A stretch of DNA of 64,000 nucleotides, taken from contig CANMXP010000005.1 in NCBI GenBank assembly GCA_947501845.1, positions 124,001-188,000 of the forward strand, written 5' to 3'. This DNA comes from an uncultured Flavobacteriaceae bacterium. Its GTDB lineage: Bacteria; Bacteroidota; Bacteroidia; Flavobacteriales; Flavobacteriaceae. The notes under the pieces were generated by a model. That model was not told the DNA's origin. It did not search any database and saw nothing but the letters and a program-made list of their open reading frames with translations. Every line of letters begins with the position of its first letter. The stretch's first letter is position 1. Made by a program: the position numbers and the translations under genes. Below, piece by piece: positions 285 through 42,293 of this stretch.

Positions 285-3200
285 ATGAAATACAAGATTT
301 GTATATTATTTTTAACGACTTTCTATTGCTCAATTTCTTTTTGCCAAACAGCTAAATTAGACAGTTTACAGCTTGAGTTGAAAAAAGCTGTAACAGATTC
401 TTCAAAAGCTCAAGTAATAAAAAATATTTCGTGGGAATATCTTAATAATAGGTCTAATAATGCTATGGCCGAATTGTACATAGACAGTCTTTATAATATA
501 AGTGTTAAGTCTGGATTGAAAAGTTGGGAGATATTGGCAAAATATCAATACGGTGTTTTGGAACGTCAAAGAGGTAACTACGATAAGGCACTTGGCTATT
601 TTGAAGAATATATTGAATTTTCTGAAGGAACAAAAGATAAGAAGGAAATTGCCAATGGTTTATATCAAAAAGCAATCATTCTTGATGATAAAGGTTCATT
701 TGAGGAGAGCCTTAAAATTTACTATGATATTCTAAAAATTTACGAGGAAATTAAAGATGTTTTTGGAGAAGCAACAACCCTAAATGCTATTGGTGAGGTT
801 TTAAAGAGATCAGAAAAAAATAATCTTGCGTTAGAGCATTATAATAAGGCTTTATTAATTTTTGGGACATTGGGAGATAAAACCGAAATGGCCAATTGTT
901 ATTATAATATTGGGGACACATATATGCTTCTTAAAGATTATGATAAAGCATTGATTTATTTTAATAATGCTTTAAAATTGGATACTGAGTTGGATAGTAA
1001 ATGGGGGATGGCCTATGATTATGAGTCACTTGGTAAAGTATCGAGTTTACAGGAACATTATAAAATAGCTTTAAATTATCATCAAAAAGCACTTGACCTA
1101 AGGAGCCAACTTAATCAAAAAAGAGAGTTGTCAATGAGTTACTTTGAAATAGCAAAAAACTATTTCAAGCTTAAAGACTATAACCTTGCCGAGGAATTTG
1201 CAATTAAATCGTTGGCTATTTCAGAAAAAATTGGAGATAAAGAAAAGTCAAAAGATAATTACACCATACTTTCTGAATTATATAGAGAGAAAGGCGATTA
1301 TAAAAAAGCTTTTGAGTTTAATTCGAAACTTATTACTGTAAAGGATAGTTTATATAATAAAAATAAATCCAGACAGATTGAGGAGCTTCAAGCCAAGTTT
1401 GATGCCGAAAAAAAGCAAAATGTTATTAGTGCTTTAGAAAAAGATTCAGAGATTAAAGATTTAAAGCTAAAACGCCAGACAACCTTTAGAAATATTGTTA
1501 TAGGTTTGATGGTAGGCCTTGTTTTGATGTCTTTTATATTTTTCAAGAGATTTAAATATAAGCAACATTTAAAACAAGAAGAATTAGAAAAGAAACAATT
1601 AAAAGCAGAAGCAGAAGTAGAAAAAGAACGCGTTAAAGAACTTGAAAAAATAGATAGGCTTAAGGATGAATTTCTTGCTAATACATCACATGAGTTGCGA
1701 ACCCCATTAAATGGTATTATAGGTTTGTCTGAATCTCTTAAAGATGGTGTGGCGGGTTCATTATCGTCTAAAGCGATAGATAACCTAGATCTAATTGTTA
1801 ATAGTGGTAAACGCTTATCTAATTTGGTTAATGATATACTCGATTTTTCTAAATTAAAAAATAAAGACTTGGTGCTTTCTCTTCAGCCAATTGATGTACA
1901 TTCGGCGGTAGATTTGGTATTGAAAGTTTCAGAATTTTTAGCAAAAGGAAAAGATTTAAACTTAATTAACTCAATACCCAAAGACATTCCATTAGTTGAA
2001 GCAGACGAAAATAGATTAGAACAAATTTTATATAACCTTATTGGAAATGCTATTAAGTTTACTGAAGCAGGTAAAATTGAGATACATGCGGAAGAACATA
2101 AAGGTATGTTGTCAGTTTCGATTTCAGATACGGGCCTGGGTATTCCAGAAGAAAAGTTTGAAGCTATTTTTAAATCATTTGAACAGGTGGACGGTTCTAC
2201 GGTCAGAGAATATGGAGGTACTGGGTTAGGACTTTCGGTTACCAAACAATTGGTTGAATTGCATGGTGGTACTATAGCTGTGAAATCAAAAGTTAAAAAA
2301 GGATCGGCCTTTACATTTACTTTACCAATAAGTAAACAAGATAGAAAAGAATTTAATAAAACCACCGCAGGAGTAAGGTCTCAAAGAGTTCAAAAAATTA
2401 ATGACGCTAATGTGGTTACTCAAGAAATGGTGCCTCAAATAAATGCCGCTAATATTCGTATTCTGGTTGTTGATGATATGGTTGTTAATAGAAGGGTTTT
2501 GGAAAACCATTTAACCATGGCAGGCTATGATATAGTCGAAGCCAGTAATGGTAAAGAAGCCTTAGCGCTTATTGAAACAGAAAATTTTGATTTGGTTCTT
2601 TTAGATATAATGATGCCAAATATGTCTGGTTATGAAGTTTGTGAAAAGATTAGGGAGCAATATTTAACCAGCGAATTACCAGTGGTATTGTTAACTGCTA
2701 AAAATAGAGTAAACGATTTGGTTACTGGGTTTAATGTAGGGGCAAATGATTATTTAACCAAGCCATTTTCTAAAAATGAATTATTAAGTAGAATCAAAAC
2801 ACATTTAAATCTTAATGGTATTCATAAGGCTACAAGTCGATTTGTACCATTCGAATTCTTAAAGTCTGTTGGAAGAGATGCTATTACAGATGTGGTTTTA
2901 GGTGATCATACACAGAAGAAAGTAACTGTTTTGTTTACTGATATAAGAGATTATACAAACTTATCTGAATCAATGACACCAGAACAAAACTTTAAGTTTG
3001 TAAATGCTTATGTGGGAAGGATGGGGCCCATTATTCAAAACAATGAAGGGTTTGTAAATCAATATCTGGGAGATGGCATTATGGCTTTGTTTCCGCAGTA
3101 TGCTAACCAGGCATTAGAGGCCTCAATAGATATGCAGAAAGCCATACAAGATTATAATGTTAAACGTGTAGAAGAAGGCTACAAGCCAATTTCTGTAGGT

Positions 3201-3689
3201 ATGGGGCTGCATACGGGTGATTTGGTCATGGGGATTATTGGGGATGTTCATAGAAACGATACGGCTATTATTGCAGATACTGTCAATACAGCCTCAAGAA
3301 TGGAAGGGGTCACAAAATATTACGGAGCCAGTATTATTGTAAGTGAAGATAGTTTGACTACTATTGAAAATAAGCAAGATTATAATTTTAGATACTTGGG
3401 TAAGGTAAAAGTAAAAGGCAAAAATAATACGATAGCTATATATGAATGTTTTGATGGTGATACTGCCGAAAGTATTCATTTGAAAACAAAAACCTTGAAG
3501 CATTTCGAAAAAGGGCTAAATCATTTTTATAATAAGGAGTTTCCTAAAGCTTCGGCGGCTTTTGATACGGTATTAACCAAAAACCCAGAAGATCTTGTTG
3601 CTAAATATTTTATAACAAAATCTGCTGAATATACTATTTCTGGTACACCTAAAAATTGGGATATGGTGAATACGATGAAAGCGAAATAA
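285..3689 (+). CDS. TPR / histidine kinase / receiver / class III nucleotide cyclase fusion
   Basis: This 1134-residue protein appears to join two-component phosphotransfer to cyclic nucleotide synthesis. Order seen: signal peptide (1-20), tetratricopeptide repeats to about 350, one membrane helix (403-420), coiled coil, HisKA with SHELRTP (His469), HATPase with an N box near 575 and G boxes near 615 and 645, receiver domain from about 723 (phospho-acceptor Asp774, conserved Lys near 826), then a class III cyclase domain (about 875-1055). The cyclase keeps metal-binding aspartates in FTDIRDYT and YLGDGIMALF and the Asn/Arg of NTASRMEG. The substrate-specifying Lys is Gln (NQYLGDG), so the nucleotide specificity is uncertain. 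A short TPR-like tail follows. The TPR part is predicted periplasmic and the rest cytoplasmic. Cyanobacterial CyaC has a related layout. Confidence 0.92.
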   Translation: MKYKICILFLTTFYCSISFCQTAKLDSLQLELKKAVTDSSKAQVIKNISWEYLNNRSNNAMAELYIDSLYNISVKSGLKSWEILAKYQYGVLERQRGNYDKALGYFEEYIEFSEGTKDKKEIANGLYQKAIILDDKGSFEESLKIYYDILKIYEEIKDVFGEATTLNAIGEVLKRSEKNNLALEHYNKALLIFGTLGDKTEMANCYYNIGDTYMLLKDYDKALIYFNNALKLDTELDSKWGMAYDYESLGKVSSLQEHYKIALNYHQKALDLRSQLNQKRELSMSYFEIAKNYFKLKDYNLAEEFAIKSLAISEKIGDKEKSKDNYTILSELYREKGDYKKAFEFNSKLITVKDSLYNKNKSRQIEELQAKFDAEKKQNVISALEKDSEIKDLKLKRQTTFRNIVIGLMVGLVLMSFIFFKRFKYKQHLKQEELEKKQLKAEAEVEKERVKELEKIDRLKDEFLANTSHELRTPLNGIIGLSESLKDGVAGSLSSKAIDNLDLIVNSGKRLSNLVNDILDFSKLKNKDLVLSLQPIDVHSAVDLVLKVSEFLAKGKDLNLINSIPKDIPLVEADENRLEQILYNLIGNAIKFTEAGKIEIHAEEHKGMLSVSISDTGLGIPEEKFEAIFKSFEQVDGSTVREYGGTGLGLSVTKQLVELHGGTIAVKSKVKKGSAFTFTLPISKQDRKEFNKTTAGVRSQRVQKINDANVVTQEMVPQINAANIRILVVDDMVVNRRVLENHLTMAGYDIVEASNGKEALALIETENFDLVLLDIMMPNMSGYEVCEKIREQYLTSELPVVLLTAKNRVNDLVTGFNVGANDYLTKPFSKNELLSRIKTHLNLNGIHKATSRFVPFEFLKSVGRDAITDVVLGDHTQKKVTVLFTDIRDYTNLSESMTPEQNFKFVNAYVGRMGPIIQNNEGFVNQYLGDGIMALFPQYANQALEASIDMQKAIQDYNVKRVEEGYKPISVGMGLHTGDLVMGIIGDVHRNDTAIIADTVNTASRMEGVTKYYGASIIVSEDSLTTIENKQDYNFRYLGKVKVKGKNNTIAIYECFDGDTAESIHLKTKTLKHFEKGLNHFYNKEFPKASAAFDTVLTKNPEDLVAKYFITKSAEYTISGTPKNWDMVNTMKAK

Positions 3690-3728
3690 TTTTTTGCTTG
3701 TCGGGAATTTTATTCTTTTTTGATGTTT

Positions 3729-6700
3729 TCATCTTTTATAGGATAACTGCTGCTTTATTTTATTGCTTTGTAATAGCTTGGTTCTGTTAATGCTATAATT
3801 TGAAGACATTTCTAAATATTTATCAAATCTTTTATCCACGTGTTTTTGTATATGACGTATTAAGAGATTGTATTGCTCTTTGTTTCTTTTGAATAATTTT
3901 GAGAACCGTGTTTCAAGCTTTAAATAGTTTTGAATGGGTAGAGAAGGTGCTTCAGAATCAAGTTGTAAGGTATTTTGTTTCATGGCTTTGCGTCTTGGGT
4001 CGTTTCTATATAATAACCATTGACCAGATTGTACAGCTGCCTGATGATATTTACTTGGATGTTTCATATCAATACCATGCGAATCACTATGTGAGTAAGC
4101 GATAATTATGGAAGGTCCATCAAAACTCTCGGCCTCATTAAAAGCTTTTAATGTTTGTTCCTTATTCGCTCCAATAGCTACTGATGCTACATAAACATGA
4201 TCATAATTCATAGCTAAAAGTCCTAAATCTTTTTTCTGTTTTTGCATGCCCTTAAAAGCGAATTTAGCTTCAGCTCCAAAAGGTGTTGCTTTTGATGCTT
4301 GTCCACCAGTATTGTCATAAACTTCATTGTCTAAAACCAATATGTTTACATTTTTTCCAGAAGCCATCACATGGTCTAATCCGCCATAACCAATATCGTA
4401 TGCCCAACCATCACCACCTACAATCCAAACGCTTTTTTTAATTAAGCTATCGGCGATATTTAGAAGTTGTTTCGCTTCGGGTGATTTCATGGTTTTAAGT
4501 TGCTTTTTTAGTATTTCAACTCTAGATCGTTGCTGGTTAATTTCTTTTTCTGCCGATTGTTTCGCTTTAATAATATCATGAACCAGGCCTAAGTTTAGTG
4601 ATGCTAGTTTAACAAGTAATGTTTTAGCTTGTTTTTCTTGTTGATCTATTGATAAACGATACCCTAAACCAAATTCGGCATTATCTTCAAACAAAGAGTT
4701 AGACCACGCGGGACCTTGACCTTTTTTGTTTTTGCTCCAAGGCGTTGTTGGCAAAGCACCTCCAAAAATAGAACTAGCGCCAGTTGCATTTGCAACTAAA
4801 AGTCTATCCCCAAACAATTGAGACATCAGTTTTAAATAGGGTGCTTCACCACAACCTTCAACACCAATTGAATATTTAAATAAAGGTTCTTGTAGTTGTT
4901 GTTGACTCACTTTTGTAGTGTCAATTTTTTCTCTGTCAAATTCTGGGATACTTTTAAAATGTTCCCAGTTTTGCTTTTCAGATTCGAAAACAGGTGATTT
5001 ATTAATCATTGTTAAGGCTTTTACAGGACAAGCATCTACACAATTATTACATCCATTACATTGCTCTGGGTTTATTTGAATTGTGTAATTTAATAAGTCA
5101 ATTTCCCAATCGGTTTCAATAGATTTTACAGATTTAAAACTTGAAGTTGCAGTTTTTAAATAGTTGTCTTCATACGCCTTGATTCTAAGTGAACCTTGTG
5201 GACAAGCCATGCTGCAAGCACCACATTGTGTACATAAATCTTGGTGCCATTCTGGGAAGAGGCCGCTTTGTTGCACCGGGTTAAGCTTTGATGTATCACT
5301 AGGGTAGGTGCCATCTGCTGGCAGTAAGCTTACAGGAATACTATTTCCTTTATTAGCAAGTAATTTTCCTAAAAGTGAATTGTTGAAATTAGCATCAAAA
5401 CTAAAAGGCGGTGTTTCTTTTTGAGATATTACAGATGTGTTGACCTTATATATATAATCATTTAAATCTGCTAAGCTATCAGAATACACCACATTTTTTT
5501 TTAAAGCTAGAAAGCAAGCGTGTAATTCAAATAATGAGTCATTATTTAATTGTGATAGTTCGTGATGGTCCACGATAAGTAAATTAATATTTTTTTCTAT
5601 GATTTGCTGTTGTGTTTTAACCGATAGAGACTGCCAGAATGCTTTAGACTTTAGTGAAGTATTAACCAAAAGGGTGCCTGCTGGTTTTAATTGTTTTATG
5701 ATGTTGTCGTTTTGTGTGAAGTTTGCTTGCTGGCAGCCTATAAAATCAGCTTGTTCTATTAAATAAGGAGCTTTTATAGGAGTTTTGCCTATGCGTAAGT
5801 GTGCTATATTGTATGTGTTGGATTTTTTATAGTCACATTGTATATAGCCTTGTACATAGTTGTCTTTTTTCTTGCCAATGATATCCATGGTATTCGTAAA
5901 ACTTTGTGTTTTATCTTTTTCTTGGTAAAAAATAGCTTCATAGGTTTTGCTTTCAATTTGAATGGTTTCAGAAAAATCTAAGCTTAAATTTTTCACGTCA
6001 TCATTGATGCCTATTGTGAAATTGTTTTTTGGTTGATCTTGTTGTAGATTATTGAAAATGGCCTTAACCATGGATGGTGTAAATTCTTTGGAGGACAAAC
6101 CGTAACGACCTCCAATGATTTTAGGGAACAATGCAATTTTATTATTTTGAAATGCATCTGAGATAGACTGCACTACGTCTAAATATAAGGGCTCACCTGT
6201 TGAACCTGGCTCTTTGGTTCTGTCTAAAACAGCGATTGACTTTGTTGATTTTGGTAAGGCTTCAATTAAATATTTGGTGCTAAATGGTCTAAATAACCTA
6301 ACTTTTATTAGTCCGAGTTTTTTGCCTTTTTTATTTAAGTGTTTAATGGTTTCTTCTATGGTTTCTGTTGAAGACGCCATAGAAATAATGATATGTTCTG
6401 CGTTTAAATCGCCAACATAATCAAATAATTTATAAGCCCTGCCTGTTAATGAAGCGAAAGTATCCATGTGTTTTTGAACAATATTTGGACAAACATCGTA
6501 GAAAGTGTTTATGGCCTCTCGACTTTGAAAAAATACATCTGTATTTTGTGAAGTTCCTCTAATAAAAGAATTGTTTGGGTTTAAAGCACGGTTTTTATGC
6601 TTTTCTATGTCTTTTAAATCCATCATAAACTGAATGGTTTCATCACTAATAGTTTTTATTTTGTTTATTTCGTGAGAGGTTCTAAATCCATCAAAAAAAT

Positions 6701-7208
6701 GGACAAAAGGGATACGGGATTCTAGAGTGGCCGCTTGGGCTATTAATGCAAAATCTTGAGCTTCTTGTACGGAAGCACTACCTAGCATGGCGTAACCAGA
6801 TTGGCGTACAGCCATAATATCACTATGATCTCCAAAAACAGATAAAGCATGTGTTGCAATGCTTCTGGTAGCTACGTGGATAACATTAGGCGTCAGTTCA
6901 CCTGCAATTTTGTACATGTTTGGTAACATGAGAAGTAAACCTTGAGATGATGTAAAGGTTGTAGATAGAGCCCCTGTTTGTAAAGCACCGTGCATAGATC
7001 CAGCAACTCCAGCTTCACTTTGCATTTGAAAAACAGAAGGTATATTTCCGAAACTATTCTGTTTTTCTTCCGATACCCATTGTTCTATTAATTCGCTCAT
7101 TTCTGACGCAGGAGTAATAGGATAAATAGGGAAGACCTCATTGGTTTTATAGGTTATACGGGCTACTGCTTGGTTGGCGTTTAATATGTTATGCTTTGAA
7201 GTTTTCAT
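3729..7208 (-). CDS. nifJ: Pyruvate:ferredoxin (flavodoxin) oxidoreductase
   Basis: A single-chain 1159-residue enzyme that oxidises pyruvate and CoA to acetyl-CoA and CO2 and passes electrons to ferredoxin or flavodoxin. The N-terminal pyruvate-binding domain begins with YPITPASEMSE. A 2x[4Fe-4S] module has CTQCGACSMACPQ (about 657-670) and CNGCNNCVDACPVKA (about 713-727). The C-terminal thiamine diphosphate domain has GGDGWAYDIGYGGLDHV near 930. Length and domain order fit full-length NifJ. It lies 66 bp downstream of osmC on the same strand, separated by a strong hairpin, so it may be transcribed by partial read-through. It converges with the cyclase gene, with only 39 bp between the stops. 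Confidence 0.96.
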   Translation of the reverse strand: MKTSKHNILNANQAVARITYKTNEVFPIYPITPASEMSELIEQWVSEEKQNSFGNIPSVFQMQSEAGVAGSMHGALQTGALSTTFTSSQGLLLMLPNMYKIAGELTPNVIHVATRSIATHALSVFGDHSDIMAVRQSGYAMLGSASVQEAQDFALIAQAATLESRIPFVHFFDGFRTSHEINKIKTISDETIQFMMDLKDIEKHKNRALNPNNSFIRGTSQNTDVFFQSREAINTFYDVCPNIVQKHMDTFASLTGRAYKLFDYVGDLNAEHIIISMASSTETIEETIKHLNKKGKKLGLIKVRLFRPFSTKYLIEALPKSTKSIAVLDRTKEPGSTGEPLYLDVVQSISDAFQNNKIALFPKIIGGRYGLSSKEFTPSMVKAIFNNLQQDQPKNNFTIGINDDVKNLSLDFSETIQIESKTYEAIFYQEKDKTQSFTNTMDIIGKKKDNYVQGYIQCDYKKSNTYNIAHLRIGKTPIKAPYLIEQADFIGCQQANFTQNDNIIKQLKPAGTLLVNTSLKSKAFWQSLSVKTQQQIIEKNINLLIVDHHELSQLNNDSLFELHACFLALKKNVVYSDSLADLNDYIYKVNTSVISQKETPPFSFDANFNNSLLGKLLANKGNSIPVSLLPADGTYPSDTSKLNPVQQSGLFPEWHQDLCTQCGACSMACPQGSLRIKAYEDNYLKTATSSFKSVKSIETDWEIDLLNYTIQINPEQCNGCNNCVDACPVKALTMINKSPVFESEKQNWEHFKSIPEFDREKIDTTKVSQQQLQEPLFKYSIGVEGCGEAPYLKLMSQLFGDRLLVANATGASSIFGGALPTTPWSKNKKGQGPAWSNSLFEDNAEFGLGYRLSIDQQEKQAKTLLVKLASLNLGLVHDIIKAKQSAEKEINQQRSRVEILKKQLKTMKSPEAKQLLNIADSLIKKSVWIVGGDGWAYDIGYGGLDHVMASGKNVNILVLDNEVYDNTGGQASKATPFGAEAKFAFKGMQKQKKDLGLLAMNYDHVYVASVAIGANKEQTLKAFNEAESFDGPSIIIAYSHSDSHGIDMKHPSKYHQAAVQSGQWLLYRNDPRRKAMKQNTLQLDSEAPSLPIQNYLKLETRFSKLFKRNKEQYNLLIRHIQKHVDKRFDKYLEMSSNYSINRTKLLQSNKIKQQLSYKR

Positions 7209-7226
7209 TGATGGTGTTGGATTTAG

Positions 7227-7270
7227 AAAAAAATGACTGCTCTGTTATTTATCGAGCAGTCATTTTTTTT
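7227..7270 (-). terminator. Hairpin terminator between osmC and nifJ
   Basis: AAAAATGACTGCTC pairs exactly with GAGCAGTCATTTTT around a short loop, with T runs on both sides. On the minus strand it follows the osmC stop by 5 bp and ends 18 bp before the nifJ start. It should end most osmC transcripts or attenuate transcription into nifJ. Little room remains for a separate nifJ promoter downstream of it. Confidence 0.85.
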
Positions 7271-7274
7271 GTTA

Positions 7275-7826
7275 CTACTTTATTATTTCTATAGAAACAG
7301 GAGTAGGGTTTGTAATCATATCAAACACAGGAGAGAATTTTGCTAAATTTTCAAGTTGCTCGGTTGATGCATCAGATTTTACTTTAAGTACAACCTTGAT
7401 ACCGTCAAAACCTTTACGAATTTCTGGCTTTAGTCCTAAGAACCCGTGTAGATCTACACCGCCTTCTAAAGTTGATTCAGCGCTTTCAATATCGATTCCG
7501 TTTGCAGCGGCATGGTATGTCATTGCAGCTGTTAAACAAGAGCCTAAAGCGTGTAATACAACTTCTGGTGGGGTGGCAGCTTTATCTTTTCCTAATAATA
7601 CGTTTGGGTGGTCGCATTCCATTGAGAAAGTTTCTTGACGTGATGTGTCTTCTTGTCCTACACCATAAAAGCTTTTGATGTTTGAAACACAATGTCCGCC
7701 TTCAATCCAGTCATTTTTAGATCTGAATTCGAATTTAGCTAATTCAGGATTTTGTTGTACTGCTCCAATAGTTTCTACTAATTGGTCTACGTTTACGCCG
7801 TTTTTTACATTTGCTGTTGTAATCAT
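7275..7826 (-). CDS. OsmC-family (peroxiredoxin-like) protein
   Basis: A 183-residue OsmC/Ohr-fold protein; family members reduce organic peroxides or handle reactive sulfur and acyl groups through a Cys pair. Visible: the first Cys in FSMECDHP, the helix PPEVVLHALGSCLTAAMTYHAA holding the second Cys, and the conserved C-terminal half (KVKSDAS...). The N-terminal extension and the DHPxxLLGxDxA-type motif resemble the broad OsmC group rather than Ohr. The ATG at 7826 is preceded by a predicted sigma-54 promoter (7875-7890) and a tandem palindromic site (7947-7980), and the next gene upstream is a sigma-54 activator. That activator is therefore its probable regulator. Confidence 0.9.
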   Translation of the reverse strand: MITTANVKNGVNVDQLVETIGAVQQNPELAKFEFRSKNDWIEGGHCVSNIKSFYGVGQEDTSRQETFSMECDHPNVLLGKDKAATPPEVVLHALGSCLTAAMTYHAAANGIDIESAESTLEGGVDLHGFLGLKPEIRKGFDGIKVVLKVKSDASTEQLENLAKFSPVFDMITNPTPVSIEIIK

Positions 7827-7874
7827 TTTTTCTAATTTTTAAATTGTTAAACATTATTGTTTGATTAGTATAAA

Positions 7875-7890
7875 GCTAACGACGTGCCAA
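7875..7890 (-). promoter_or_regulatory. Sigma-54 (-24/-12) promoter of osmC
   Basis: Read on the minus strand the site is TTGGCACG-TCGT-TAGC. It matches the -24 half of the consensus (TTGGCACG) exactly and has the invariant GG and GC dinucleotides at exactly 10-base spacing. The -12 half differs by one base (TAGC for TTGC). The predicted transcription start is near 7863, giving a leader of about 37 nt to the osmC ATG. A gene for a GAFTGA-containing sigma-54 activator lies immediately upstream, which strengthens the call. Confidence 0.8.
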
Positions 7891-7946
7891 ATAGTTTAAT
7901 TATTTGAAAATCAGTAATTTAATATGTGTTTCTATTGGTTTTTAAT

Positions 7947-7980
7947 TAACGATATTTCGTTAATTAACGAAATATCGTTA
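7947..7980. promoter_or_regulatory. 34-bp perfect palindrome: tandem activator-binding site (putative UAS)
   Basis: The 34 bases form a perfect palindrome centred between 7963 and 7964. Inside it are two smaller inverted repeats of the form AACGA-N4-TCGTT, separated by AATT. The centre is about 100 bp upstream of the predicted sigma-54 start site, the usual place for an enhancer bound by a sigma-54 activator with a Fis-type HTH. There is no adjacent T tract, so a terminator for the gene at 8063-9895 is less likely. Binding by that activator is inferred. Confidence 0.65.
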
Positions 7981-8062
7981 TATTATTTATGAGATCTCGT
8001 GAATAGATAAGAATACTCTAGAGTTTGTTTCTTGCAATAATACATTTCAAAAAACAATTATT

Positions 8063-9895
8063 TTATAAAGGACGCTCGATTCCTAAGGCTTTAATCCTAG
8101 AAGTTAATGTAGTAGGAGGGAGTTGTAATAAAGTAGCTGCACCGTTAGCGCCAGATATTTTCCATTTGGTTTGTTTCAAGGCTTTTAGAATGTTCTCTTT
8201 TTCTAAGGCGATAAGCTCCTTGGAAGTTAAGATTTTTTCTTTAATAGTTTCTTTTGTTGGTTTTGCCGAATTTATATCACTTGGAATAATCGCTTGCCAA
8301 TTTATAATACCATATTGTGAAACAATCACGGCACGTTCTATTAAATTCTGTAGTTCCCTAACATTACCAGGCCAGTTGTAAGAAGTCAGTAATGCTTTAT
8401 CGTTTTCAGATAATTCAACAATGGGTTTATTTAATTTTGTAGAGAATTGAGTAATCATTTCATCAGCAATCAGACAAATATCATTGCCTCTATTTCTAAG
8501 CGCAGGAACTTCAATTGGGAACACATTCAGTCTGTAATAGAGGTCTTCTCTAAATTTACCTTCTTTGGAAAACTCAAAAAGGTTTCTATGTGTGGCTGCA
8601 ATAATTCTAACATCTACTTTAATTGTTTCAGAACTTCCAACAGGATCAAATTCGCCTTCTTGAATAATACGCAATAATTTAGGTTGTAATTCTAATGGCA
8701 TTTCGCCTATTTCATCTAGAAATATAGTGCCTTTATCAGCCAGTAAAAAGCGTCCTTTTCTACTAATAGTAGCACCTGTAAAAGCCCCTTTTTCATGCCC
8801 GAATAATTCACTTTCTATCAAGTTTGCTGGAATGGCCCCGCAATTAATACGAATTAATGGTTTATCATTCCTATTGCTTTCTTTATGTATGGCTCTAGCT
8901 ACTAATTCCTTTCCTGTTCCCGTTTCACCGTTTATTAAAACTGTGGCATCTGTTTTTGCTACTTGCTGAATAAGGTTTAGTGCAGCTTTCATGCTTTTGT
9001 CTTCAGCTATAATGCCATAACTGCTGGTAAGCTCTTGAATTTCTTCGGCTAAATATTGGGTTTGCTTTGTTAATAGACTTATTTTGTCTTCGGCAACCAA
9101 GCGCTCTTCAATATTTCTTAAAATAAGGGTGTAAAAGGTTTTGGTGTTGGTACCATATTTACTTATGGTCCCTTCGTTTAGGGTTTCGGTATCGTTAGAC
9201 CCTATAACTTTTACAATGTTTGGTAGGTAATTGTTTATTGACTTTTTGTCGTCTTCCGCTTTAACAATCGATTCTATTAAATAAGCACTGTCCTCATCAA
9301 AGAAAAACAAGACATTACGCTGTAGGGTGTCATCATTTTCTAATAGAGTATTTGCGGAGGGGTTAGTGAGTACAATTCTAAAATCGTCGCTAAACATAAT
9401 AATGGCATCCATAGCACCATCAATAAGCCCCTTCATTTTACTATTTGCTATCTCAATGTCTTGTTTAGACGAAGCTAAACGCTCTTGTATGGTGTCTAAT
9501 TCGCGATGACGTTTTATCATGACCGATAAGATACCTTGTGCAAAACCGCTGTCTTTTTTAATTAAATTTAGAAAGTGTTCCCGTTCAATTTTTAAAACTT
9601 TAGTACTTTCTATAGCCGTAACAGAAGCCGAGCGTGTTTCATTATCTATCAGGGCATATTCACCAAAGCAGTCTCCAATGCTTAAGGTATCGTAAATATG
9701 GCCTTTATCATGAACTTTTACAGAACCTTTTAAAACTGCATACATGGAATTTCCTACCGTGTCTTTTTTAAAAATGATTTCATTTTTTATATAGGCTTCT
9801 TCGGTAATATGCTCACATAAGTGTTTAAGCGATTCTTGAGAAACTTCAGAGAAAAAAGAAATTTCGGATAAAAAATTTATAAGGGTTTTAGCCAC
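8063..9895 (-). CDS. Sigma-54-dependent transcriptional activator with cyclic-nucleotide-binding and PAS domains
   Basis: A 610-residue enhancer-binding protein. Order seen: cNMP-binding domain (about 1-130) with a well-kept phosphate-binding cassette (FGEYALIDNETRSASV, Glu and Arg present), a PAS-like region (about 150-265), a coiled linker, AAA+ domain with Walker A GETGTGKE near 321-328, the sigma-54 contact loop GAFTGA near 370, FLDEIGEMP and the R finger region, and a Fis-type HTH at 575-610. The start codon is GTG; no in-frame ATG precedes the domain. Its probable target is osmC, through the site at 7947-7980 and the promoter at 7875-7890. A cyclase gene lies about 4 kb beyond nifJ, so a cAMP input is plausible but unproven. 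Confidence 0.93.
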   Translation of the reverse strand: MAKTLINFLSEISFFSEVSQESLKHLCEHITEEAYIKNEIIFKKDTVGNSMYAVLKGSVKVHDKGHIYDTLSIGDCFGEYALIDNETRSASVTAIESTKVLKIEREHFLNLIKKDSGFAQGILSVMIKRHRELDTIQERLASSKQDIEIANSKMKGLIDGAMDAIIMFSDDFRIVLTNPSANTLLENDDTLQRNVLFFFDEDSAYLIESIVKAEDDKKSINNYLPNIVKVIGSNDTETLNEGTISKYGTNTKTFYTLILRNIEERLVAEDKISLLTKQTQYLAEEIQELTSSYGIIAEDKSMKAALNLIQQVAKTDATVLINGETGTGKELVARAIHKESNRNDKPLIRINCGAIPANLIESELFGHEKGAFTGATISRKGRFLLADKGTIFLDEIGEMPLELQPKLLRIIQEGEFDPVGSSETIKVDVRIIAATHRNLFEFSKEGKFREDLYYRLNVFPIEVPALRNRGNDICLIADEMITQFSTKLNKPIVELSENDKALLTSYNWPGNVRELQNLIERAVIVSQYGIINWQAIIPSDINSAKPTKETIKEKILTSKELIALEKENILKALKQTKWKISGANGAATLLQLPPTTLTSRIKALGIERPL

Positions 9896-29916: not shown

Positions 29917-31833
29917 TTAGATAAAGTTTTTTAAGTCAAATCTGATTTTTAAAATTTCCTGAATTTTTTGAATGGGTTTAAAGCAACGTCTAAGTTTTAG
30001 CTTTTCTTCCTTTGTCAAGGTTTCTAAATCAATAAATTTACCTGAATTGTCGCGTAAGAGTCCTTGCTTGGTTTTAAATTTTGATAGAGCCTTGAAAGCA
30101 TAAGAACAAGATTCGTATAATTCCTTATTGTTAGGCTCTAGTTCTGCTAATTTTTCAAAACGCTGGTAAGTATTATTGACGCCTTTCATTTGCTTGCTTA
30201 AAATGAGTAATCTAGCAGCATCAATAAGTGGCATTAAAGCTCTGTTTTTAATATTGAAAAGCTCTTTTTGATCGCCATTTTGTTCTACTAAAAACTGTTT
30301 AAAGAAACCAAGGGGTGAGGGGCTTTTAATAGCATCACGTCCTAAAAATTTATAAAACAGATCTGTTTTTTCTAGAGTCGAATAAATAGTATCTGTAAGC
30401 TCATCAACTAATATTTCACTTCCATAAACACGATTGTAGTCAAAAAATATAGAGGATAACAAAACTGCTTTTTCATCTGGTTTTAAAATCCAATCTTTAA
30501 ATTGAGTTTTCCATGCTGTTAGGGATTTACACCATTCTGGGTTGCTCGCCATCATATCGGCTTCACAATATTCAAATCCAATTTTATTTAAAGACTTGGT
30601 AATTAGTTTCGCAAGTTCTAAAAAATACGCCTGCGTTTCGTCATATTGTTCTTTTGGAACATCTTCAAATACTAAAGCATTATCCTGATCTGTGAAAAGT
30701 AATTGTTCTTTACGTCCCTGACTACCTAAAGCCAGCCAGGAAAAAGCTACTGGAGGAGCTGTAGGCATTTTTTTTAAAGCCAATTCTACAACGCGTATCG
30801 TAACAGCATCATTAATTTGAGAGATAACATTTATAATGTGAGATATGGGGATATTTTGCTCAATATAATTTTTTAATAAAGCATTGGCCTTAAGTCTAGC
30901 TGCACGGAGTTTTTTAGTCCGTTTGGCTCGTTTTATTTCTTTAAGTATAACGGTTGGATTATTACCAAGAGTCACTAAAACATCATGATGTGTTAAAACA
31001 CCAACAAGTTTAGAATTAACGGTACCATCTTTAGTAATACACAAATGTCCAATGCTATGTTTAATCATTTGCAATTGTCCATCAGCTATAGTTAAATCCT
31101 TTTTGCCTGTCATTACAGGTGAACTCATGATATTGGTTACAGGGGTCTCAATAGGGAAAAGGCCAGTTGCTATTTTGTTTTTAATGTCACTATTTGTAAT
31201 AATACCAACTGGCTTTTTTTCATCATCAACTACTATAATACAACCAATTTTATGGTCGCTCATTTTTTTTGCAGCCTCTTTTAAGGAAGCTTTAATAGAA
31301 CAGGTTATAGGTGATTTTGTATAATTGGCTGTTTGAAAATTCACCATATCTTGAGATGTACTGGGCAAATAATCAACAAAAATTTTACCTGCTACTTCTG
31401 CCGAATAGGGGTCATAGGCATTAGATGCAAATGCGGTAATTAAATACTTCTGAATTTGAGTGTTATAATCTGTTACCGATTGAAAAACAGCAATAGGTAT
31501 GGCATAAACTATAGATTCTTCATTGGCAGTAGCTGTTAGTTTATAAGGCTCTTTAGTTATTAATGGACGTAATCCAAACACATCACCAGTATCATGAATA
31601 TTCATAATATCCTTAACATCGCCATTACTGTAATACAAATTTATGGCACCATCTCGTACAATATAAAAATTGTCATGCCAAGCGTCATCCTTTTCAAATA
31701 TAGTATCTCCTTTTTCTAAATAAGTTATTGTAACCTCGGTAGCAATTTGTAATAAGGTTTTATTAGAAAGCATGTTAAAAGGCGGATAGCCATTTAAAAA
31801 ATCAGCAATACGTTCAGCTATGGAATTCTTCAT
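29917..31833 (-). CDS. cNMP-binding / CBS pair / DUF294 nucleotidyltransferase-like protein
   Basis: A 638-residue multidomain regulator: cyclic-nucleotide-binding domain (about 10-135), two CBS domains (about 165-290), a DUF294 nucleotidyltransferase-like domain with SQGRKEQLLFTDQDNA (GSxGRxEQ...TDxD motif, about 370-390), and the DUF294 C-terminal domain. The phosphate-binding cassette is weak (VFGLRPLI in place of FGExAL), so cAMP binding is doubtful. It resembles GlnD-type enzymes that modify proteins. The gene abuts the exonuclease downstream and follows FAH by 33 bp. Confidence 0.92.
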   Translation of the reverse strand: MKNSIAERIADFLNGYPPFNMLSNKTLLQIATEVTITYLEKGDTIFEKDDAWHDNFYIVRDGAINLYYSNGDVKDIMNIHDTGDVFGLRPLITKEPYKLTATANEESIVYAIPIAVFQSVTDYNTQIQKYLITAFASNAYDPYSAEVAGKIFVDYLPSTSQDMVNFQTANYTKSPITCSIKASLKEAAKKMSDHKIGCIIVVDDEKKPVGIITNSDIKNKIATGLFPIETPVTNIMSSPVMTGKKDLTIADGQLQMIKHSIGHLCITKDGTVNSKLVGVLTHHDVLVTLGNNPTVILKEIKRAKRTKKLRAARLKANALLKNYIEQNIPISHIINVISQINDAVTIRVVELALKKMPTAPPVAFSWLALGSQGRKEQLLFTDQDNALVFEDVPKEQYDETQAYFLELAKLITKSLNKIGFEYCEADMMASNPEWCKSLTAWKTQFKDWILKPDEKAVLLSSIFFDYNRVYGSEILVDELTDTIYSTLEKTDLFYKFLGRDAIKSPSPLGFFKQFLVEQNGDQKELFNIKNRALMPLIDAARLLILSKQMKGVNNTYQRFEKLAELEPNNKELYESCSYAFKALSKFKTKQGLLRDNSGKFIDLETLTKEEKLKLRRCFKPIQKIQEILKIRFDLKNFI

Positions 31834-41699: not shown

Positions 41700-42293
41700 A
41701 TGATTAAAGAAAAAGGACAATTACTATTAGACTATATTAACAGGTATGTTTCCTTAACTAAAGAAGAGGAAGAGCTGCTCCTTTCTAAAGTCACTTACAG
41801 GGCCTATTTAAAAGGGCAGTTTATTGTTCAGCAAGGAGATATTTGCAAATATGAATGCTTTGTACTTTCTGGTTGTACAAAAACATCTTATATCGATGGC
41901 GAAGGCCAGGAGCATATCGTTATGTTTTCTATTGAAGATTGGTGGACTGCAGATATGGGGAGCTTTATAACACAAACGCCAGCCGATTATAATGTTCAGT
42001 GCATAGAAAAAACAGAGTTGATCATGTTTTCTTATGATATCATTGAAGATTTATACACAGCCATTCCAAAATTGGAGCGTTTTTTTAGACAAATTATCCA
42101 AAAAGCATTTGTAGCTTCGCAAAAGCGTATTGTTAGAAGTTTTAGCCTTTCTGCAAAAGAACGGTATGTTTATTTTAGAAATCAGTATCCAAAAATAGAA
42201 CAGCGGATTCCCCAATACATGATTGCTTCATATTTAGGTATTACTAAAGAGTTTCTGAGCAAAATTAAGAGTGAACTTATATCAGAACAATAA
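41700..42293 (+). CDS. Crp/Fnr-family transcriptional regulator
   Basis: A 197-residue regulator with an N-terminal cyclic-nucleotide-binding-type barrel (about 10-125) and a C-terminal winged HTH (YMIASYLGITKEFLSKIKSEL). The phosphate-binding cassette is not conserved (EDWWTADMGSFIT instead of FGExAL...RxA), and no Cys cluster is present. The ligand is therefore unlikely to be cAMP or an FeS cluster by the usual sites. It probably controls its own operon and possibly the SnoaL/YceI genes downstream. Confidence 0.92.
   Translation: MIKEKGQLLLDYINRYVSLTKEEEELLLSKVTYRAYLKGQFIVQQGDICKYECFVLSGCTKTSYIDGEGQEHIVMFSIEDWWTADMGSFITQTPADYNVQCIEKTELIMFSYDIIEDLYTAIPKLERFFRQIIQKAFVASQKRIVRSFSLSAKERYVYFRNQYPKIEQRIPQYMIASYLGITKEFLSKIKSELISEQ

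Follow-up and report, generated by a model that had tools for sequence, protein, structure and literature searches.

A block of four genes from an uncultured Flavobacteriaceae bacterium probably encodes a dedicated second-messenger switch, in which a sensor cyclase would act through a cyclic nucleotide-binding (CNB) σ54 activator on the promoter of an osmC-nifJ gene pair; from comparison with related genomes, we put the probability of this reading at about 0.72. The block lies in a 64,000-nucleotide stretch (NCBI GenBank assembly GCA_947501845.1, contig CANMXP010000005.1, positions 124,001 to 188,000 of the forward strand), here called the window, and positions given without a locus label are counted from its first base. 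A gene for a TPR-histidine kinase (HK)-receiver (REC)-class III cyclase (285..3689, plus strand, 1,134-aa product) converges on nifJ (3729..7208), which shares the minus strand with osmC (7275..7826) and with the gene for a cNMP-PAS-AAA+ σ54 activator, named from its Pfam matches (8063..9895), such that the order of transcription is activator (9895-8063), osmC (7826-7275), nifJ (7208-3729). An earlier note made from the window's letters had placed these four genes within 10 kb, where we found all of them, and had proposed that they form a local cyclic-nucleotide circuit for redox metabolism. The proposal of a circuit is supported by a gene order that is conserved, by the presence of a cyclase at almost all such loci, and by a conserved enhancer and σ54 promoter before osmC-nifJ; three of its parts, namely the extent of the core, the redox meaning, and the role of nifJ, had to be revised.

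We searched for the activator in two family samples, of 149 genomes and of 397 genomes overlapping the first, and in a phylum sample of 395 genomes. The first search used the N-terminal half of the protein, only matches within the chosen E value were reported, and the larger samples scored fewer candidates per genome. The activator was found in 16 of the 149 genomes, with one match each and 63 to 93% identity outside its own genome, and in 40 of the 397, again with one match each (the 16, G262, and 23 new genomes); within the phylum sample, only its own genome and G262, from the same family, matched. Among the first 16, 15 have osmC downstream of the activator gene and on its strand, and all 16 have nifJ after osmC. 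The exception is G011, in which osmC and nifJ are on a contig other than that of the activator; in G148, there is one intervening gene, and the contig ends within nifJ. Across the 40 genomes, this downstream, same-strand placement of osmC holds for 38 (not for G011 and G602), with other genes between the two in G059, G620, G768, and G754, and nifJ follows osmC in 38 (the exceptions being G600 and G754). On this comparison the conserved core is activator-osmC-nifJ, and the association of activator, cyclase, and osmC-nifJ is well beyond chance. The earlier note had called for a check of gene order across the family: the three-gene core is conserved, whereas the type of cyclase varies among genomes. 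In 15 of the 40 activator genomes, dnaN is in the fetched stretch, which indicates that the neighbors were partly inherited together and suggests that the history of the cassette is one of descent with loss.

Two further observations concern the cassette as a unit. G628, a genome of the same genus, gave no match to the activator or the enhancer, implying that the cassette was lost or gained within the genus. At one locus, two genes are inserted between activator and osmC (L220:7286-8863), one encoding an AraC-type regulator and the other without a Pfam match, and a pair of similar sizes occupies the same place at another (L221:7178-8726).

The activator itself combines a Pfam cNMP_binding domain (residues 35 to 115, 69.4 bits) with a Sigma54_activat domain (residues 295 to 462, 249 bits), and between them lies a weak PAS match (PAS_9, residues 163 to 263, 18 bits, below the cut-off of 27). 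The GAFTGA and Walker A (GETGTGKE) motifs of the AAA+ domain are invariant in all 16 first-set orthologues, and so is the CNB cassette, GxCFGEYA..D...RSAS, which includes Glu79 and Arg88; the activator thus has the CNB fold with the Glu/Arg phosphate-binding cassette, as the earlier note had claimed. The note had also called fusions of cNMP domains to σ54 activators uncommon, and this agrees with what we found as far as it was tested: none of 58 GAFTGA-bearing open reading frames (ORFs) from 80 other σ54 activator loci matched the CNB profile at an E value of 0.01, the profile having been built from this subfamily only. An AlphaFold model of the activator (mean pLDDT 63.5, poor over the AAA+ domain) served for the CNB domain only, and the PAS-like region was barely covered by the fold search. 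The best NCBIfam scores of the activator were for NifA and NorR, both below their cut-offs. It shares with σ54 enhancer-binding proteins of the NifA/NorR/FhlA type the GAFTGA AAA+ domain, distant upstream dyads, a σ54 promoter, and an IHF-like site between them, but their signal region is a GAF or receiver domain, in place of which the activator has a CNB domain and a PAS-like region. In contrast to Crp/CAP-type cAMP receptors and the CNB domains of eukaryotic PKG/PKA, its output is a σ54 AAA+ engine rather than, as in Crp, a winged helix. The solved relative Bd1971 likewise joins a bacterial CNB domain to an effector, but that effector is, by the structure title, an EAL enzyme.

We found that the 236-bp gap between the activator gene and osmC contains a good σ54 promoter and three dyads, all read on the minus strand. 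The promoter, TTTGGCACGTCGTTAGCTTT (7872..7891), has its GG at 7888-7887 and its GC at 7876-7875, and the first G lies 62 bases before the osmC start. The dyads are 12-bp elements of the form ACGA-N4-TCGT: dyad 1, ACGAGATCTCAT (7989..8000), dyad 2, ACGATATTTCGT (7967..7978), and dyad 3, ACGAAATATCGT (7949..7960), centered at -106, -84, and -66 from the GG. Between enhancer and promoter is an IHF-like element, TTTCAAATAATTA (7897..7909), with one mismatch to the IHF consensus WATCAANNNNTTR. The same arrangement recurs in the 15 activator-osmC gaps that we compared. TGGCA-N7-[TA]G was present in all 15 (shuffled gaps averaged 0.17 of 15, with a maximum of 2), and GG-N10-GC was complete in 13, with GT in the other 2. 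The dyads stand at the same distances from the GG in all 15 loci, with L144 one base off and the third dyad degenerate in L135 and L145, giving 43 dyads versus 1.6 expected from shuffles. At a fixed -21 from the GG, 12 of the 15 have an IHF-like element with no more than one mismatch; in 300 shuffles, no single offset had more than 2. Judged from these positions, enhancer, IHF-like site, and promoter together have the classical σ54 layout.

A sequence-only model of the dyad region matched, at an E value of ≤1e-5, 38 of the 40 activator genomes and none of the 357 others; 23 of the 38 had taken no part in building the model. The two genomes that it missed are the most divergent, and on inspection they carry dyads at -104/-65 and -105/-66 from a σ54 promoter. 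In the window's own genome, the two-dyad pattern with up to 3 mismatches was found at the osmC site (0 mismatches) and in two other places (3 mismatches each), and the reversed control was found 7 times. Where the activator gene lies elsewhere, in G011 and G602, the enhancer is upstream of osmC-nifJ; G011 has a second, weaker copy after the activator gene.

The window cyclase comprises, by Pfam, TPR repeats, HisKA, HATPase, a receiver, and a class III cyclase domain. A single hydrophobic segment lies close to residue 403, and the protein has, by eye, a signal peptide-like start. Its motifs place the phosphorylation sites at H469 and D774, and the catalytic domain has D886 and D930, which we take to be the two metal Asp residues, as well as N1001 and R1005, presumably the transition-state Asn and Arg, and Gln926 at what we assume is the base-specifying position; the catalytic residues of a class III cyclase are thus in place. 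A Gln at that position was considered as a hallmark of the locus-linked cyclases and was dropped, as unlinked homologues at 45 to 49% identity carry Gln too. CyaC is a hybrid kinase-receiver-cyclase, and the window protein resembles CyaC-type enzymes and Cya2-like class III cyclases in having a histidine kinase and a receiver before the class III cyclase domain; it differs from them in its TPR sensor region and its Gln/Ala base-specifying pair. The nearest solved catalytic domain, 2w01, is deposited as an adenylate cyclase and is, we assume, the guanylyl cyclase Cya2.

An orthologue of the window cyclase (69 to 92% identity in the cyclase domain) is present in 9 of the 16 activator genomes of the first sample versus none of the other 133 (Fisher 1.5e-10), 5 of which have homologues at 43 to 55%. 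In other activator genomes, a protein of ~680 residues adjoins the activator or, in some, nifJ, and the 8 that were scanned have an N-terminal class III cyclase domain followed by TPR repeats; some genomes have the TPR-HK-REC-cyclase, others the cyclase-TPR protein, and a few both. A profile search, which recovered 30 of the 30 cyclase loci from the search with the window cyclase, found a class III cyclase within ~10 kb of the activator, or of osmC-nifJ in G011 and G602, in 38 of the 40 loci. The two exceptions are G145, in which the TPR-HK-REC-cyclase is on another contig, and G148, whose contig ends inside nifJ; in G602 and G011 the cyclase stays with osmC-nifJ, away from the activator. The same profile found a cyclase in 1 of the 80 other σ54 activator loci, which came from a contig scan with the full-length activator that drifted to generic σ54 activators with no named orthologue (many phyla, 1.35 Mb in total, ~17 kb on average), so that they are not a matched control, a point to be counted against the comparison. 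We also had 8 other stretches from these genomes, and 3 of them have a cyclase, namely L213 and L214 (chosen for a cyclase or overlapping the locus) and L243. Statistics of proximity treat the genomes as independent, overstate the association, and were set aside.

At least three cyclase domain architectures occupy the position at the locus. The strongest argument for a cyclase in the service of the cassette is this exchange of one kind for another at a single position. Beside the two types above, a ferredoxin-cyclase-globin-like protein is encoded near nifJ in G006 and G750 (L134:199-1536, 445 aa; L222:2914-4248, 444 aa), apparently an oxygen- or redox-sensing cyclase, and G018 and G620 have a cyclase with, by eye, a hydrophobic N terminus. 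A class III cyclase of 657 aa (L243:6494-8467) is located ~3 kb from an extra enhancer at the second enhancer locus of G620. The host genome (5.37 Mb) has 2 class III cyclase matches, 4 strong σ54 activators, and a single rpoN (PF04552); the class III cyclase match outside the block lies ~139 kb from the locus in a 358-aa frame (G000:C5:265945-266487).

The two presumptive target genes are unlike their namesakes in specific ways. NifJ scores as a pyruvate:ferredoxin oxidoreductase (PFOR) with the equivalog model TIGR02176 (1389 bits versus a cut-off of 911), and NifJ proteins of at least 61% identity occur in exactly the 16 activator genomes of the 149 (in G148 over 885 residues; Fisher 8e-22); the best matches in the other 23 genomes with one reach 48% over the full length and 54% over half of it. 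We aligned 37 linked NifJ sequences (all 38 except the incomplete G148 gene) with 10 unlinked ones and with the solved enzyme 6cin, and numbered the residues of the window NifJ from the motif positions. Three of the four cysteines that bind the proximal [4Fe-4S] cluster are replaced, by V783, A811, and S1041, and C786 is kept, turning CXGC into VEGC and ATGC into ATGA. None of the 37 linked sequences has Cys at any of the three positions: Val predominates at the first, Ala (31) or Ser (6) stands at the second, and Ser (36) or a gap (1) at the third. The eight cysteines of the medial and distal clusters do not vary at all, and the thiamine motif hardly varies. All 10 unlinked family NifJ proteins, from the 23 other genomes, keep the four proximal cysteines, as does 6cin in the aligned part shown. 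According to PMC5020499, the two-subunit enzymes of Sulfolobus have no cluster other than the proximal one, and the CXGC motif is its conserved ligand in the family.

Compared with the solved PFORs (6cin; 1b0p/2c42), the linked NifJ proteins have whole-length homology, the thiamine pyrophosphate motif, and the eight medial and distal cysteines in common with them but have lost three of the four proximal ones in 37 of 37 cases. With three of its proximal ligands gone, the linked NifJ probably departs from the usual route of electron transfer. Two observations call for caution over loss of the cluster: the G756 protein has a Cys one residue before the first lost position, and 29 of the 37 linked proteins, the window's not among them, have a Cys two residues before the last; given these nearby cysteines, we infer the loss of the cluster from that of its ligands. 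The earlier description of nifJ as an oxidoreductase gene is borne out by the family score, but its product is no normal PFOR. How a PFOR might act after losing the cluster next to its thiamine is a question of enzymology that these proteins raise.

The osmC product scores well above the cut-off for its family (PF02566, 49.3 bits versus 27.5). In an alignment of 40 sequences, C46 and C97 are the sole invariant cysteines (40 of 40), and Ser165-Pro166, which we take to occupy the position of the second catalytic Cys (CPYS-type motif) of OsmC/Ohr peroxidases, is likewise invariant (40 of 40), so that the second catalytic-type Cys of those enzymes is missing. The nearest solved relative, 2opl (residues 5 to 179, E value 8e-42), is an unnamed hypothetical protein, whereas osmC here is tied to a σ54 circuit.

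Extra copies of the enhancer, 7 in all, point to what the system may control. Three lie upstream of TauE/SafE sulfite-exporter genes (G553, G754, and G600), two precede a pair of ResA-like genes (G620 and G754), and one, in G148, is upstream of an operon encoding an ArsM-like methyltransferase, a ResA-like protein, an unknown protein, a homocysteine S-methyltransferase, DsrE, and a NifS-like protein; the promoters are clear in G148, G620, and G553. A trio of genes for a SoxA/TsdA-like cytochrome, an unknown protein of ~225 aa, and DsrE follows at the locus in G115 (by Pfam) and at 6 of the 23 new loci, which were searched with the G115 proteins, and in G600 and G754 this trio takes the place of nifJ. 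Since six of the seven extra sites precede TauE/SafE, ResA-like, or methyltransferase/DsrE/desulfurase genes, the theme appears to be sulfur handling, and the common thread of the regulon looks like inorganic sulfur. Several points tell against this theme. It rests on 6 extra sites in 5 genomes plus the cytochrome-unknown-DsrE trio; the seventh site (G011) precedes a short ORF only; dyads or promoters are degenerate at the TauE and ResA sites of G754 and the TauE site of G600; and in the window's own genome the dyad model matches only the osmC-nifJ site. The ~225-aa protein between cytochrome and DsrE is conserved at the 7 loci where the trio was seen and has no Pfam match (e.g., L145:16889-17566).

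These features suggest the following mechanism. The membrane TPR-histidine kinase-receiver-cyclase would respond to a condition sensed by its TPR region and kinase by making a cyclic nucleotide, and the nucleotide would bind the N-terminal CNB domain of the σ54 activator, presumably activating rather than inhibiting it. The activator, on the three dyads 66 to 106 bases upstream of the promoter GG, would be brought to the polymerase by a loop bent at the IHF-like site, and the promoter would be opened and osmC and nifJ transcribed. In some relatives the same enhancer would serve sulfite-export, thiol-redox, and DsrE/desulfurase genes, and the most likely signal for the switch is a load of inorganic sulfur or persulfide. 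Cyclic-nucleotide control of bacterial transcription is known mainly through Crp-type factors, and a literature search, weak in being confined to titles and abstract starts of open-licence papers, returned no description of such a circuit. Here a CNB signal domain is joined to a σ54 engine, sensor, receptor, and target promoter lie within 10 kb, and the enhancer is a defined array of three dyads; with one promoter, one receptor, and one linked cyclase, the role of class III cyclases in the family becomes directly testable. A wider proposal, which we advance tentatively and rate at somewhat less than an even chance, is that cNMP-gated σ54 activators, each with its own local cyclase of interchangeable architecture, control a regulon for sulfur stress in which the main enzyme, a PFOR minus its proximal cluster, must catalyze some other thiamine-dependent reaction, perhaps with sulfur compounds as substrates.

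A number of findings weigh against the proposed switch. Its support is comparative, and its binding and expression links are predicted. The C-terminal Fis-type helix-turn-helix of the activator is weak (HTH_8, 19.6 bits versus a cut-off of 22), G602 has one clean dyad only, and at the laxer E value of 0.01 the dyad model also weakly matches 6 first-sample genomes that have no activator (4e-4 to 5e-3). In G145 there is no cyclase near the activator. Class III cyclases canonically specify their base by Lys/Asp(Thr) in adenylyl and Glu/Cys in guanylyl enzymes, and neither pair is present here, Gln/Ala being found in 8 of the 9 TPR-HK-REC-cyclases (the 8 readable ones, with G018 left out), so that the enzyme might yield cAMP or cGMP, or hardly any of either. 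The nucleotide could also be shared, given the 26 cNMP-domain matches in the host genome, most in Crp-size frames. That abundance of possible receptors also favors a different account, in which the activator does control osmC-nifJ through the dyads, the PAS-like region or a different CNB ligand supplies its true signal, and the cyclases serve other receptors and sit nearby by shared ancestry. The PAS-like region shows good conservation, with 55 of its 160 residues the same in all 16 sequences, and may, rather than the CNB domain, carry the main signal, and the partial co-inheritance seen with dnaN fits shared ancestry. We consider this account improbable, as cyclases of different architecture are exchanged for each other, on one flank of the cassette or the other, at 38 of 40 loci versus 1 of 80 control loci, the TPR-HK-REC-cyclase orthologue is confined, in the first sample, to activator genomes, and the CNB cassette is invariant.

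The binding of the activator to the dyads is itself a prediction, and a palindromic array could serve another factor, which leaves some room for the idea that the dyads belong to another regulator or that the activator is constitutive or repressing. With the enhancer found at the stricter E value only in activator genomes, and standing with osmC-nifJ apart from the activator gene in G011 and G602, we regard this idea as very improbable. The remaining alternative accepts cyclic-nucleotide control and makes the switch one of redox or peroxide defense, with OsmC as a peroxidase and NifJ as an oxygen-sensitive oxidoreductase, the meaning that the earlier note had favored. The OsmC and PFOR annotations speak for it, the ferredoxin-cyclase-globin-like proteins of G006 and G750 would fit the sensing of oxygen or redox state, and the ResA-like targets are thiol-redox proteins. 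We think this meaning unlikely: OsmC lacks the second catalytic-type Cys, NifJ lacks its proximal cluster ligands, and the extra regulon members are mostly sulfur genes (TauE/SafE, DsrE, NifS-like, homocysteine S-methyltransferase, and SoxA/TsdA-like cytochrome). Sulfur handling should probably replace redox as the meaning of the switch.

Outside the block, the window holds two further genes with CNB matches. An ORF of 638 aa (29917-31833, minus strand) has a strong match of 63.5 bits and may encode another local CNB receptor, one able to draw on the same nucleotide, and a Crp-size protein with a CNB domain match of 45.4 bits is encoded at 41700-42293 on the plus strand.

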